Assembly (NCBI RefSeq): GCF_900101335.1
Contig: NZ_FNKA01000001.1
Span: 1,054,001 to 1,118,000, forward strand
From: Quadrisphaera sp. DSM 44207
GTDB taxonomy: Bacteria; Actinomycetota; Actinomycetes; Actinomycetales; Quadrisphaeraceae
Direction: 5' to 3'
Length of the DNA: 64,000 bases
Both the position numbers and the translations under genes were made by a program. Every line of letters begins with the position of its first letter. The stretch's first letter is position 1. Positions 9,288 through 60,538 of this stretch are shown here, piece after piece. The notes under the pieces are model-generated. The model was not told the DNA's origin and did not search any database. It saw only the letters and a program-made list of their open reading frames with translations.

Positions 9288-9935
9288 TCAGCCCGGCGGG
9301 GAGTAGGTCCAGTGCCAGGGCTCGCGCGGCACGTCCTCGGCGAACCCGAACTCGCCGCCGTGCTCGCGCATCCACGCCAGCGCCGTCGCGTCCAGGTCGA
9401 GGTCGAGGCTGCGGCCCCAGCCGTGGTCGCTCGTGCCGGGCTCGGCCGCCAGGCCGCCCTGGGAGTACAGGCCCTTGCGGCGGGCGAGGTCGACCTGCTG
9501 CTCGTAGGAGCGGTAGGAGTCCGTGACGCCGATCTGCACGCCGTCGCGCGCCGCGGCCGCGGCGAGGCTCGAGAAGGCGTCGGCGGCCGGCGCCCACAGC
9601 CGGTGGTCCCCGCGGCCGATCGGCGCGAGCGCCGGCTCGGGCACGCGCCCGTTGCCGTAGCCGGCCAGGGCCACGGGCACGCCGTCGGCGGTCATGGCCG
9701 TCGAGGTGCGGCTCGCGCGCTCCAGGCGCAGCGCCGCCAGCTGGTCCTCGGCGCCCAGGGCGACGGCTGCGGTGCTGCCGGCAGGGGCAGCAGGGGGCGC
9801 CGTCGCCGCCAGCGCACCGTCCAGCGCGCCGGCGAAGGCCGGCGCGCCCGTCGCGCTCGAGGAGGTCAGGGAGGCGATCCGGCCCTGGATCTCCGCGATC
9901 CGCGCCGTCACCCCGGCTAGGCCGTCCACGCGCAC
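9288..9935 (-). CDS. M15-family D,D-/L,D-carboxypeptidase, probably flagellum-associated
   Basis: A 215-residue peptidase. The C-terminal VanY/M15 domain has zinc ligands in SDHGWGRSLDLD (His171, Asp178) and EPWHW (Glu205, His208). It would cleave peptidoglycan stem peptides. No classical signal peptide is seen. The N-terminal 45 residues (GLAGVTARIAEIQGRIASL, then FAGALDGAL) resemble the N-terminus of the flagellar lytic transglycosylase at 36244-36897. The gene has a good FliA-type promoter at 9957-9985. I infer that the peptidase opens the cell wall for flagellar assembly and may be exported by the flagellar apparatus. The enzyme family is certain; the flagellar role is inference. Confidence 0.8.
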   Translation of the reverse strand: MRVDGLAGVTARIAEIQGRIASLTSSSATGAPAFAGALDGALAATAPPAAPAGSTAAVALGAEDQLAALRLERASRTSTAMTADGVPVALAGYGNGRVPEPALAPIGRGDHRLWAPAADAFSSLAAAAARDGVQIGVTDSYRSYEQQVDLARRKGLYSQGGLAAEPGTSDHGWGRSLDLDLDATALAWMREHGGEFGFAEDVPREPWHWTYSPPG

Positions 9936-9956
9936 CGCCGCTGCCTCACCCGCACT

Positions 9957-9985
9957 GCATCGGCCGCGGCGCGCGCGGGCTTGAG
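9957..9985 (-). promoter_or_regulatory. FliA-type promoter of the M15 peptidase
   Basis: On the minus strand CTCAAG (9980-9985), a 16-nt spacer, then CCGATGC (9957-9963). The spacing and both boxes match the other promoters of this type in the window. The start codon lies 22 nt beyond the -10 box. Confidence 0.65.
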
Positions 9986-21535: not shown

Positions 21536-23558
21536 CGCTCACCACCCCCACGGTCTCGATCATCAGGCCGGGCCCGGAGACCTCGGCGTAGGACAGCGCG
21601 GTCACCCGCGGCACCGCCATCGCCACCAGGCGGCGCAGCGGGGCGCGCAGCGCCGGGGCGCACACGAGCACCGGAGCCCACCCGAGCTCCTCGGCGGCCG
21701 CCAGGCGGCGTCCGACCTCGTCCACGAGTCGCTCGACCCTGGAAGGATCCATGCCGACCTGCGTGCCGGCGTCCGTGACACGCAGGGACTCCACGAGCTG
21801 GTGCTCCAGGAGGGGGTCGAGGGTCAGCACGCGCAGCACGCCGTCCTGCACGTGCGCGGCCGCGACCGCCGGCCCCAGCGCGGTGCGGGCGGCCTCGACG
21901 AGGGCGTCGACGTCCGCGCCGCCCTTGGCGCGCAGGGACAGGCCCTCGTAGATGCGCGCGAGGTCGCGGATCGCCACGCCCTCCTCGAGCAGGGCCTGCA
22001 GGACCCGCTGCACCTCCCCCAGGGAGAGCAGGTTGGGCACGAGCTCCTCGACCACGGCGGGGTCGGACTGCTTGAGGGCGTCGGTGAGGGTGCGCACGTC
22101 CTCGCGGGAGAGCAGTCGCGCGGCGTTGGTGCGCACGATCTCGGCCAGGTGCGTGATGAGCACGGACGCGCGGTCGACGACGGTGGCGCCGGTCATCTCC
22201 GCCTGGTGGCGCATCTCGGCGGGGATCCACTTGCCCGACAGCCCGAACACCGGCTCGGTGGTCACCTGCCCGGGCAGGCCGTCGAGCGCGTCGCCGAGGG
22301 CGAGCACCTTGCCGGACGGCGCCTGGCCGGCGCCGACCTGGACCCCGGAGATCCGCACGGCGTAGGTGGACAGCGGCAGGTCGATGGAGTCGCGGGTGCG
22401 CACCGGCGGGACGACGACCCCCAGCTCGAGGGCCACCTTGCGGCGCAGGGATCGCACCCGGTCGAGCAGGTCGCCGCCGGAGGAGGCGTCGACGAGGTCG
22501 ACGAGGTCGGGCGCCAGGACGATCTCGAGGGGGTCCACGCGCATCTGCTGCATCAGCGCCTCGGGCGTCTCGGGCAGCGCGGTGAGGGCGCTGGGGGCCT
22601 CCTCGGCGGCGGCCTCGTCGGCCTCGGCGGGCAGGCGCTGCGCGAGCAGGATCATCGCGGCGCCGATGAGCACGAACGGCAGCTTGGGCAGGCCGGGGAT
22701 GAGCGCGATGGCGATCGCGCCGGCGCCGGCGATGCGCAGGGCCGGCTGCGAGCGCAGCAGCTGGGAGGCGGCGTCGCTGCCGAGGTCGCCCTGCGTGGTG
22801 GCGCGGGTGACGATGAGGCCGGTCGCCACGGACATCAGCAGCGCGGGCACCTGGGTGACGAGGCCGTCGCCGATGGTGAGCAGGCTGTAGGTGGCCAGCG
22901 CCTCCCCGGGGGCCATGCCGCGCTGGGCCACGCCGATCACGAACCCGCCGACGAGGTTGATCAGCGTGATGATGATGCCGGCGATGGCGTCGCCCTTGAC
23001 GAACTTCGAGCCGCCGTCCATCGCGCCGTAGAAGTCGGCCTCGGCGGTGACCTCGGCGCGGCGGGTGCGCGCGACGTCCTCGTCGATGAGGCCGGCGTTG
23101 AGGTCGGCGTCGATCGCCATCTGCTTGCCGGGCATCGCGTCGAGGGTGAAGCGGGCGCCGACCTCGGCGACGCGGCCGGCGCCGTTGGTGATGACGACGA
23201 ACTGGATCACCACGAGGATCAGGAAGATCACGAGGCCGATGACGAGGGAGCCGTCGACGACGAAGTGCCCGAAGGCGTCGATGACCTTGCCGGCGTAGCC
23301 GTCGGCGAGCACCAGGCGCGTGGAGGCGACGTTGAGGCCGAGGCGGAAGAGGGTCGCCACGAGCAGCAGCGACGGGAAGATGGAGAAGTCCAGCGGCCGC
23401 TTGACGTACATGCTGGTCATGAGGATCAGCAGCGCGCCGCTGATGTTCACGGCGATCAGCAGATCCAGCAGCAGCGCCGGCAGCGGGATGACGAGCAGCA
23501 GCACGGTGCCGACCACGCCGACCGGCATGGCGAGCTGGCTCCAGCGACGAGGGCCCAA
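21513..23558 (-). CDS. flhA: Flagellar export gate protein FlhA
   Basis: A 681-residue inner-membrane component of the flagellar type III export gate. The N-terminal half has about eight transmembrane helices. The FHIPEP signature region RFTLDAMPGKQMAIDADLNA begins near residue 136. The cytoplasmic C-terminal domain, which docks chaperone-substrate complexes and FliJ, spans about 345-681 after a Glu/Ala-rich linker. A FliA-type promoter at 23635-23663 precedes it, and a 151-nt gap separates it from the upstream hypothetical gene. Confidence 0.97.
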
Positions 23559-23634: not shown

Positions 23635-23663
23635 TCATCGGCCGCGGCGGCCGCGACCTTGAG
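23635..23663 (-). promoter_or_regulatory. FliA-type promoter of flhA
   Basis: Minus strand CTCAAG (23658-23663), 16-nt spacer, CCGATGA (23635-23641). Transcription would start near 23628, giving a leader of about 70 nt before flhA. Confidence 0.6.
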
Positions 23664-29627: not shown

Positions 29628-29656
29628 CCATCGGCACGACGGCCCTGCGGGTTGAG
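29628..29656 (-). promoter_or_regulatory. FliA-type promoter of fliM
   Basis: Minus strand CTCAAC (29651-29656), 16-nt spacer, CCGATGG (29628-29634). The GTG of fliM is 7 nt from the -10 box. The palindrome CCGATCGG (29657-29664) abuts the -35 box. Confidence 0.7.
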
Positions 29657-32398: not shown

Positions 32399-32426
32399 TC
32401 ATCGGCAGTGCGCCGAGGGTGTTGAG
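32399..32426 (-). promoter_or_regulatory. FliA-type promoter of flbD-motA-motB-fliL
   Basis: Minus strand CTCAAC (32421-32426), 15-nt spacer, CCGATGA (32399-32405). Transcription would start near 32392, about 50 nt before the flbD GTG. Confidence 0.7.
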
Positions 32427-34504: not shown

Positions 34505-36247
34505 TCAGACGCGGACGTCGAGGAGGCCGCCGCCCGCGGCGGTGCCGGCCGGGCGGGCCTCCTCCGGCAGGCGCACGGGAGCGCGGCCCGGAGCGCGGCC
34601 GGCGCCGCCGCGCCCGTCGCCGCCCGGGCCGCCGGACGACGCGCCGGCACCGGACCAGGGACCGGTGCCGGTGCTGCCGCCGCCGCTGCCGCCGCCGCTG
34701 CCGCCGCCGGTGCCGGTGCCGCTGCCCAGGTCCAGGGAGGCCTGCAGGCCGGTGGCGGCCAGGTCGCGGCGCAGGTCGGGCAGCGCCTGGCGCAGCGCGT
34801 CGCGCGCCGCCTCGGTGCCGCCGACGAGCTCGATGCGCACGGCGTCGGGGCGGATCTCGGCGACCACGCGCACGTGCCCGATGGCCTCCGGCTGCACCGA
34901 GAGCGTGAGCCGGTGCACCCCGGCGCCCAGGTGGGGCACCTCGGCCAGCCGCGGCACCAGCTGCGAGGGCAGGGTCGGGGCCGCGGCCGGCGCCGCAGGC
35001 GCGGCCGGGGGTGTCGCCGGGGGTGCGGTCGCGACGGGCGCCGGCGCGAGGGGCGCCGCGAGCGGGGGGACGCCGGTCGCGGCGGCGCTCGAGGGCGTGG
35101 CGGACGCCGGGGCGGTCGGGGCGGTCGAGGTCGCTGAGGTGGCCGAGGTCGTCGAGGTCGCGGCGGACGGGGCCGTCGGGCTGGTGCTCGCGCCCTGGTC
35201 GGAGGACGCCGTCGCGCCGTCGGGACCGACCGCGGCAGAGGGCTCGACGGGCGAGCCAGCCGGGACCGTCGGTGCGGCCGCCGGGACCGCCGTGGCGGTG
35301 GTGGCGCCGTCCGGGAGCGCGGTGCCGGGCGCCGCGGCGGACCCGGCGGCGCCCGTTCCCGGGTCCGCGGTGCCGGGGGCCGAGGTGGGGGCACCGGGGA
35401 CACCGGGGACGGCGGTGACGGCGAGGGCCGCGGCCACGGCACCGGGGGCAGCGAGGGCGGTCGCGGAGCCGTTCGCCGCAGGGATCGCCGCAGCGGCAGC
35501 GCCTGCTGCCGGCGCAGCGGCCGAGCCCTGGCCGCCGAGTCGGACGAAGGCGGGCGCACCGAGCACCAGTGCACCCGCGTTCGTCCGACTCGGCGCAGCA
35601 GCGACGACGGACGGGACGCCGGACGCGGCGGCCGGGGCGGTGACGTCCTGCGGCTCGCCGCTCGCCGCGGCGGCCGACCGGTCGAGGGCGGGAGCCGCCG
35701 CGAGGGCAGCGACCTCGGCCGCGGCGGCCCGCAGCGCCGGCTCACCGGGCACGGCCGGAACGGCCTCCGCACCGGCGTCGCGCCCGGCGTCCTGCCCGAT
35801 GTCGGAACCGGCGTCGCGCTCCGCCTCCTGCCCGGCGTCCCGCCCGGCGTCCTGACGGCCGTCCTGCCCGGCGTCCCCGGAGGCCGGTGCGCCCTCCGCC
35901 GCGTCCCGCCCGGCGTCCTGCGGGTCGGCCGGCCCGGCGTCCCGGGCCGCCGGCGCCGCGTCCGCGGGCTCGGCCGGCCTGTCAGCACGAGGGCGACCCG
36001 GGGCGCGCTCGCGTGCTGGCACCCCGGTGCGCTCCGCGGCGGCGTCAGGACGACGGCGCTCCCCGGCGCGCCCGCGTGCCGACGCCTCGGGGCGCTCGCC
36101 GGCCGGGCGCTCGGCGTCCGCGAGCTGGCCGGCGAGCAGCTCGGCGAACCCGCCCGCGTCGCCGCGCTCGCCGGTGCGGCCGCCGCCGGCGCGCGGGCCG
36201 GGCCCGGCGACCGGCGAGGGCGGGCCGGAGGTGCTCATCGACGTCAT
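34505..36247 (-). CDS. fliK: Flagellar hook-length control protein FliK
   Basis: A 580-residue protein, mostly low-complexity Ala/Pro/Ser/Gly. The N-terminal half has repeated Asp-Ala-Gly-Arg/Gln units (about residues 100-165). The C-terminal Flg_hook domain (about 440-530) is recognisable: LGAGVHRLTLSVQPEAIGHV, then RPDAVRIELVGGTEAARDAL. FliK is exported, measures hook length and triggers the FlhB switch. The ATG overlaps the stop of the lytic transglycosylase gene (ATGA). Position and C-terminus support the call. Confidence 0.87.
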   Translation of the reverse strand: MTSMSTSGPPSPVAGPGPRAGGGRTGERGDAGGFAELLAGQLADAERPAGERPEASARGRAGERRRPDAAAERTGVPARERAPGRPRADRPAEPADAAPAARDAGPADPQDAGRDAAEGAPASGDAGQDGRQDAGRDAGQEAERDAGSDIGQDAGRDAGAEAVPAVPGEPALRAAAAEVAALAAAPALDRSAAAASGEPQDVTAPAAASGVPSVVAAAPSRTNAGALVLGAPAFVRLGGQGSAAAPAAGAAAAAIPAANGSATALAAPGAVAAALAVTAVPGVPGAPTSAPGTADPGTGAAGSAAAPGTALPDGATTATAVPAAAPTVPAGSPVEPSAAVGPDGATASSDQGASTSPTAPSAATSTTSATSATSTAPTAPASATPSSAAATGVPPLAAPLAPAPVATAPPATPPAAPAAPAAAPTLPSQLVPRLAEVPHLGAGVHRLTLSVQPEAIGHVRVVAEIRPDAVRIELVGGTEAARDALRQALPDLRRDLAATGLQASLDLGSGTGTGGGSGGGSGGGSTGTGPWSGAGASSGGPGGDGRGGAGRAPGRAPVRLPEEARPAGTAAGGGLLDVRV

Positions 36248-36897
36248 GCGGTGCTCCTGCTCATCAGGTCGGTGACCTTGCGGACGTAGGCCTGGGTCTC
36301 GGCGTAGGGGGGCACGCCGTCGTGGCGGCGCACGGCCCCGGGGCCGGCGTTGTACGCGGCGAGGGCCAGCGGCACGGACCCGAAGGAGTCCAGGTGGCGG
36401 GCCAGCAGGCGTGCGGCGCCGTCGACGGCCTGCGCCGGCACCATCGGGTCCACCCCCAGCTCGGACGCCGTGCCGGGCATGATCTGCATCAGCCCCTGGG
36501 CGCCGGCGGGGCTGACGGCGTCGGCGCGGCCGCCCGACTCCACCTGCGCGACCGCGCCCAGCAGGCCGGCCGGCAGGTGGTAGCGCTCGGTGGCCGCGGC
36601 GAACAGCGACGCGTACGGCGAGGCGCCGTCGACCCCCGAGGCGCCCGACGCGCCCGCGGTGCGCAGCGCGGCCGGGCGCGCCCAGGACGCCGTCCCGCTC
36701 GCTGCGGCGGCGCCGCTCGCCGGCTCCTCGGCAGCCTGCGCGAGCACCTGCTCGAACGCGGCCCCGCTGGAGGCGGTCAGCGCGGAGGCGCCGACGGCCG
36801 CGCGCGCCGGGGCCGTGCCGCCGAGCGCGGCCAGGCGAGCCTGCAGCGCCTGGACCCGGGCCTGGACGTCGCCGAGGCCCTCGGGAACGGCGATCAC
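36244..36897 (-). CDS. Flagellar lytic transglycosylase (GH23 SLT domain)
   Basis: A 217-residue peptidoglycan lyase. The C-terminal SLT domain has AQVESGGRADAVSPAGAQGL (catalytic Glu in VESGG), MQIMPGTASELG and ALAAYNAGPGAV. The N-terminus (GLGDVQARVQALQARLAAL, FEQVLAQAA) lacks a Sec signal and resembles that of the M15 peptidase at 9288-9935. No FlgJ is present in the window, so this enzyme probably opens the wall for the rod. The GTG overlaps the fliJ stop (GTGA). Confidence 0.9.
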   Translation of the reverse strand: MIAVPEGLGDVQARVQALQARLAALGGTAPARAAVGASALTASSGAAFEQVLAQAAEEPASGAAAASGTASWARPAALRTAGASGASGVDGASPYASLFAAATERYHLPAGLLGAVAQVESGGRADAVSPAGAQGLMQIMPGTASELGVDPMVPAQAVDGAARLLARHLDSFGSVPLALAAYNAGPGAVRRHDGVPPYAETQAYVRKVTDLMSRSTA

Positions 36898-43477: not shown

Positions 43478-43505
43478 GTATCGGCGCGCCGGCCGTTTCC
43501 TTGAG
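43478..43505 (-). promoter_or_regulatory. FliA-type promoter of the flgB operon
   Basis: Minus strand CTCAAG (43500-43505), 15-nt spacer, CCGATAC (43478-43484). The leader would be about 85 nt. CCGATCGG lies upstream at 43518-43525. Confidence 0.7.
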
Positions 43506-52851: not shown

Positions 52852-52879
52852 CTCAACCGGAGCACCCGCGTGCCGATGG
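52852..52879 (+). promoter_or_regulatory. FliA-type promoter of flgN-flgK-flgL-fliW
   Basis: Plus strand CTCAAC (52852-52857), 15-nt spacer, CCGATGG (52873-52879). It is divergent from the sigma-gene promoter, with about 73 bp between the -35 boxes. Confidence 0.7.
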
Positions 52880-60509: not shown

Positions 60510-60538
60510 CTATCGGCAGCGGGGGGAGCCGGGTTGAG
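60510..60538 (-). promoter_or_regulatory. FliA-type promoter of the cheB operon
   Basis: Minus strand CTCAAC (60533-60538), 16-nt spacer, CCGATAG (60510-60516). This -10 box is the closest to the enteric GCCGATAA. The leader is about 45 nt. Confidence 0.75.

Follow-up and report, generated by a model that had tools for sequence, protein, structure and literature searches.

FlgJ of the beta- and gammaproteobacteria consists of a rod-cap domain and a GH73 muramidase and is made without a Sec signal. The export of flagellar wall hydrolases with an N-terminal flagellar domain is known already from this protein. FlgJ serves the passage of the rod (PMC4752226, PMC8517470). The later actinobacterial classes have lost FlgF, FlgG, and FlgJ according to a 2023 study of actinobacterial flagella, which leaves the assembly of the simple rod in a thick wall unresolved and in whose main text NlpC, transglycosylases, hydrolases, and peptidases go unmentioned (PMC10746217).

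The peptidase described here resembles FlgJ in the joining of a wall hydrolase to an N-terminal flagellar domain. It differs in the enzyme, an M15 peptidase, and in the N-terminal part, a two-helix module of 45 residues in contrast to the rod-cap domain of FlgJ; the FlgJ architecture is absent, with Pfam giving VanY only. The C40-SLT and SLT enzymes of actinobacterial flagellar clusters share the module, the genomes, and the presumed target with the peptidase, but they cut glycan strands through an SLT domain, with or without NlpC/P60, and are typically encoded within the flagellar cluster. The LdcB/VanY carboxypeptidases of the M15B group are exported by Sec or anchored, unlike the peptidase, and to our knowledge none of them carries the module. 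Fold and zinc/catalytic residues are the same in these enzymes (4mph, 4ox3, 5hnm). CwlQ, an SLT enzyme of Bacillus subtilis, is comparable as a motility-linked wall enzyme under a flagellar sigma factor; it is SigD regulated and is reported to be needed for swarming, not for flagellar assembly (PMC10653849, its reference 87). Neither a flagellar M15 peptidase nor a tag common to many hydrolase folds was found in the open literature, with subscription journals outside the search.

Gene, product, and catalytic domain

The flagellum-associated peptidase is a VanY-type M15B enzyme of 215 amino acids, encoded at positions 9288 to 9935 on the reverse strand of the window, i.e., the whole 64,000-nucleotide stretch of Quadrisphaera sp. 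DSM 44207 DNA that was analyzed. The reading frame opens with GTG; a second GTG at 9929 may be the true start, since the N termini of homologues read MDGI.. and VGIE... The catalytic domain comprises residues 111 to 213 (9297 to 9605, reverse strand), to which Pfam assigns VanY (PF02557; E value of 2.1e-12). H171, D178, E205, and H208 are invariant in a family alignment of 39 sequences, and the zinc ligands and catalytic glutamate that mark M15B enzymes (SxHxxGxxxD and ExWH) are present. The AlphaFold2 model shows two helices at residues 4 to 24 and 31 to 45, followed by a loose linker and by an M15 domain that is modeled with confidence (mean pLDDT of 85.8), with LdcB/VanY structures as the top Foldseek matches (E value of 4e-9). 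Pfam and Foldseek results both place the enzyme in the M15B family.

The bond that is cut, including any D,D- or L,D-carboxypeptidase activity, is only inferred. The VanY/LdcB relatives are carboxypeptidases, and a VanY-type carboxypeptidase alone would not break cross-links, which counts against the wall-cutting role. An endopeptidase would fit better with the SLT and C40 partners, a role that has not been shown.

The flanks of the gene are unrelated, with a sugar ABC transporter at 6.1 to 9.1 kb and a glycoside hydrolase at 10.8 to 13.1 kb. The flagellar island with which the peptidase is linked in function (csrA, flhF-like, flhA, flhB, fliR ... fliC; 18729 to 46740, reverse strand) has its csrA end at 18.7 to 19.0 kb, and the initial annotation was right in placing the peptidase about 9 kb outside it. 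It was also right about the missing Sec signal: no Sec-like hydrophobic stretch is seen in the hydrophobicity of the window peptidase, as required of an early (rod/hook-class) type III substrate. A hydrophobic segment above the cutoff occurs in 1 of 73 peptidase homologues, compared to 35 of 51 other VanY proteins.

A shared N-terminal module

The N-terminal module covers residues 1 to 45 (9801 to 9935, reverse strand) with the two predicted helices described above. The same module is found in flagellar hydrolases of other folds, among them the flagellar SLT lytic transglycosylase of the window (36244 to 36897, reverse strand; Pfam SLT, E value of 6e-24), whose gene sits between a fliJ-like gene and fliK. 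The peptidase also shows the helix pattern of the module, [I/V]xx[I/V]xxRIxxIQxx[I/L]xx[L/V], at its extreme N terminus. The N termini of the two window enzymes (GLAGVTARIAEIQGRIASL for the peptidase and GLGDVQARVQALQARLAAL for the transglycosylase) are identical at 9 of 19 positions, exactly as first counted by eye. When the two N-terminal families are compared profile against profile, hhalign gives a probability of 96.9% and an E value of 2e-10.

In a blind test, a profile built only from transglycosylase N termini was searched over 59 genomes, i.e., the relatives including the window's own genome. Transglycosylases rank first. Next come the G006 peptidase (1.7e-7) and the window peptidase (3.2e-7), the latter in second place within its own genome after the transglycosylase itself. 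The peptidases of G003 and G057 are matched more weakly. Other matches, from about 5e-4 up, are coiled-coil-like segments within long open frames of flagellated genomes, probably chemotaxis-receptor coiled coils as judged by pattern, without annotation of each match. With a noise floor of about 5e-4, the two flagellar-hydrolase matches of the window genome are more than 1,000-fold stronger. An ordinary coiled coil was considered as an account of the module and is rejected on this margin; chance similarity is excluded by the profile-profile comparison, the blind profile, and the linker shuffles described below. The sharing of the module is well supported.

Among the 59 relatives, close peptidase homologues occur in 10 (the window genome counted), all with the module. 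A scan of genome contigs yields 80 peptidase loci from Cellulomonas, Georgenia, Sanguibacter, Oerskovia, Demequina, Actinotalea, Kineococcus, Actinoplanes and its relatives, Dactylosporangium, Catenuloplanes, Virgisporangium, and some Acidimicrobiia. With N termini read by eye, the module is present in 78 of these 80 homologues, and residues R12, I16, and F34 are invariant in the 39-row alignment. Loss of the likeness in homologues, which had been named beforehand as a refutation, did not occur.

The two exceptions, L154 and L173, nest inside the peptidase family by their catalytic domains and have a classical Sec signal and a coiled coil at the place of the module. No flagellar genes were detected in their genomes, which are metagenome-assembled. 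These loci represent a natural domain swap, with a Sec signal in exchange for the module where flagella are absent. Neither this swap nor the F-x-x-x-L motif discussed below formed part of the initial annotation.

Some genomes contain two module-bearing M15 paralogues (L069/L070 in G057, L104/L118, and L108/L120). In Georgenia satyanarayanai, a short open reading frame, L223, encodes nothing but the module (MDGILAITQRIASIEATLDSLAPP...) and may represent a remnant or a gene with a frameshift.

Candidate gate recognition motif and inferred export

The second helix of the module contains the motif FAGAL at residues 34 to 38 (9822 to 9836, reverse strand), a candidate FlhB gate recognition motif on the grounds of F34 invariance and linker statistics. 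The linkers of 73 automatically parsed homologues were tested against shuffled linkers: F-x-x-x-Φ (with Φ as a hydrophobic residue) is present in 72 of 73, compared to a mean of 11.8 and a maximum of 20 in the shuffles. The +4 position is hydrophobic in 87% of these linkers and the +8 position in 74%; outside the motif, the linkers are rich in Ala, Ser, and Thr. The general form of the gate recognition motif is F-x-x-x-hydrophobic, as reportedly described by Evans et al. in 2013, and the peptidase has it behind the helix, as the module demands. Several flagellar proteins of the window show the same form at similar places, namely, FliK (FAELL, 34), FlgD (FLQLL, 39), FlgE (FQDTL, 41), FlgB (FEDAL, 43), and FliE (FAATL, 49), as does the transglycosylase with FEQVL at residues 48 to 52; at a comparable place in the window's FlgC, no F-x-x-x-L was found. 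The gate recognition motif of Salmonella FlgD comprises residues 36 to 40 and needs a distance of at least 19 residues behind the hydrophobic N-terminal signal, with 30 for good export (PMC8983047). F34 to L38 of the peptidase lie at the right distance for such recognition, without any binding data. The identity of the gate motif is not shown, since a short F-x-x-x-L fits any amphipathic helix with hydrophobic residues at +4 and +8, and docking at FlhB remains an inferred, candidate function.

The peptidase is probably a flagellar wall cutter whose module routes it to type III export as early cargo, with the export itself being inferred. Here, the FliA-type sigma factor would turn on the flagellar genes and with them the production of the peptidase. 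The two-helix module, attached to several unrelated wall hydrolases, would then bring the enzyme to the type III gate as rod/hook-class cargo, where F-x-x-x-L in the second helix may dock at FlhB in the manner of the FlgD motif. The first helix, amphipathic and rich in small residues, would act as the N-terminal hydrophobic signal and perhaps keep the enzyme at the growing rod. Once past the membrane, the enzyme would use its M15 domain to trim or cleave peptide stems, with glycan strands or other peptide bonds being cut by a partner SLT/C40 enzyme. The resulting opening of the wall would let the rod and hook pass in lineages reported to be without FlgJ. As for the shared N-terminal export signal initially proposed for the two hydrolases, the sharing holds and extends to further catalytic folds; flagellar export is still an inference from sequence.

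The module may instead be a docking or coiled-coil tag that tethers the hydrolases to a cytosolic or basal-body flagellar protein or lets them form an oligomeric cap at the rod, with exit by another route. This is unlikely but agrees with the first 24 residues being an amphipathic helix, with the resemblance of the weaker profile matches to chemotaxis-receptor coiled coils, and with the separation of the two helices from the enzyme domain in the model. A tether does not account for the Sec signal that replaces the module wherever the latter is absent, or for F-x-x-x-L being conserved as strongly as the helix. Wall enzymes must also exit the cytosol, yet no other secretion signal is seen.

FliA-type promoters and gene neighborhoods

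The FliA/sigma28-type promoter of the peptidase gene, claimed in the initial annotation, is confirmed by pattern search as CTCA-N17-GCCGAT at 9959 to 9985 (reverse strand); the range of that annotation, which ran to 9985, is the open reading frame together with this promoter. CTCA-N15..17-GCCGAT occurs at seven sites in the window, compared to 0.32 expected. The other six, found by the same search, precede flhA (start at 23528; site at 23637 to 23663), fliM (29620; 29630 to 29656), an flbD-like gene (32343; 32401 to 32426), flgB (43386; 43480 to 43505), and cheB (60461; 60512 to 60538), all on the reverse strand, and the flgN-like/flgK pair (52934/53426; 52852 to 52877) on the forward strand. 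These gene names are presumed, having been assigned by recognition. The peptidase gene is the only one in the window with a FliA-type site outside the flagellar and chemotaxis clusters. CTCA-N15..17-GCCGA, known from actinobacterial FliA work, is taken here to be the FliA consensus, an assumption supported by the location of all seven window sites ahead of motility genes, the peptidase gene included. By this consensus the gene belongs to the FliA (sigma28) regulon, with its transcription being inferred. FliA-type sites lie upstream of 47 of 73 peptidase homologues, compared to a mean of 1.2 and a maximum of 5 in shuffles, and FliA-like sites lie upstream of only 4 of 51 other VanY genes. The FliA-type sigma factor of the window seems to control early genes too, as suggested by the six other sites ahead of flagellar and chemotaxis genes, including flgB and flhA.

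Neither in the window nor in most relatives is the peptidase gene linked to the flagellar island. It does lie inside the flagellar block, downstream of flgE, in four Cellulomonas loci (L121, L138, L157, and L176), followed by motA in the three loci that reach far enough. In Demequina and Actinotalea, it adjoins cheX, cheY, cheR, cheB, and receptor genes.

Promoter and neighborhoods also bear on the possibility that the peptidase is late (filament-class) or effector cargo acting outside the cell, in zoospore release from sporangia or against other bacteria. In enterics, promoters of the FliA type mostly belong to late genes, and many of the carriers form sporangia and have motile spores. The promoter type argues little for this explanation in the window, where it also precedes the early genes flgB and flhA, and many carriers, such as Cellulomonas, Georgenia, and Demequina, are without sporangia. 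With the Cellulomonas homologues located within the rod/hook operon, late cargo is regarded as very improbable.

Co-occurrence with flagella

The 10 carriers among the 59 relatives all possess flhA, which is present in 31 of the 59 overall (P = 9e-4). In the wider set, flhA is found in 47 of 50 carrier genomes, compared to 52 of 395 genomes of the class. Flagellar genes are present in the 48 carrier genomes with the module, and none were detected in the 2 without it. The carrier Isoptericola variabilis has no flhA yet contains flagellar rod/hook genes, and flhA is therefore probably missing from the draft. The class-wide sample is without power for the M15 peptidase since the window genome is its only carrier, and the Actinoplanes family and the carrier genomes were used instead. 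Among the genomes of the Actinoplanes family, 18 of 27 with flhA and 0 of 74 without it encode the peptidase (P of ∼1e-13). Its absence from the other 9 of the 27 indicates that some actinobacterial flagella do without it. All P values are indicative only because close relatives are counted repeatedly, without phylogenetic independence. The initial view of the peptidase as a flagellar wall enzyme is supported by its tracking of flagellated genomes, and the finding that would have contradicted it, an occurrence only in nonflagellated relatives, did not arise.

The dedication of the peptidase to the flagellum is well supported. A general wall peptidase, with a coincidental likeness to the flagellar enzyme and a flagellar link due to lineage, would suit the wide distribution of VanY-type enzymes in all genomes examined and the unlinked gene in the window but is largely refuted by the module, the promoter, and the distribution of 18 of 27 versus 0 of 74 within one family, by the operon position in Cellulomonas and Demequina, and by the differing features of the other VanY proteins (35 of 51 with strongly hydrophobic segments and 4 of 51 with FliA-like sites).

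Other enzymes under the module

A combined module profile, searched over the 395 genomes of the class, finds matches in 28, of which 24 are flhA positive and 4 are flhA negative (P = 4e-20). The matches in the flhA-positive genomes are all wall hydrolases or hydrolase-like, comprising C40-SLT fusions, the SLT and M15 enzymes of the window, and, in genomes of family f35, proteins with a DHPxGKAADF...HFDHVHIS domain; those in the four flhA-negative genomes are unrelated coiled coils. Catalytic architectures joined to the module number at least five (M15B, C40-SLT, SLT alone, a second zinc-peptidase-like domain, and a muramidase-like domain), and the evidence leans, without great assurance, toward a portable type III export tag dedicated to wall hydrolases, in the place of FlgJ in lineages that lost it. 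Interchangeable hydrolases under one tag would provide a testable answer to rod assembly without FlgJ. The module further offers a sequence handle for flagellar export cargo whose genes lie away from flagellar clusters. As a small, modular tag, it would also allow export-gate recognition to be studied in harmless soil bacteria. A strict swap of the C40 domain for M15 was considered and is excluded, with some genomes having both and some having one. In the enzymes of most relatives, an NlpC/P60 domain stands between the module and SLT; the SLT enzyme of the window is without it.

The DHPxGKAADF...HFDHVHIS domain of the f35 genomes is joined to the module in L251, L253, L257, L264, L266, and L267, all from flagellated genomes. 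One example was scanned and gave no Pfam or NCBIfam match; the lead from a PDB sequence search is 9flh, a LysM-domain protein. In L215 and L234, from the peptidase-carrying genomes of Cellulomonas carbonis and Actinotalea soli, the module is fused to a muramidase-like domain that neither Pfam nor NCBIfam matches and for which the PDB sequence leads are 8b2h and 8b2e.
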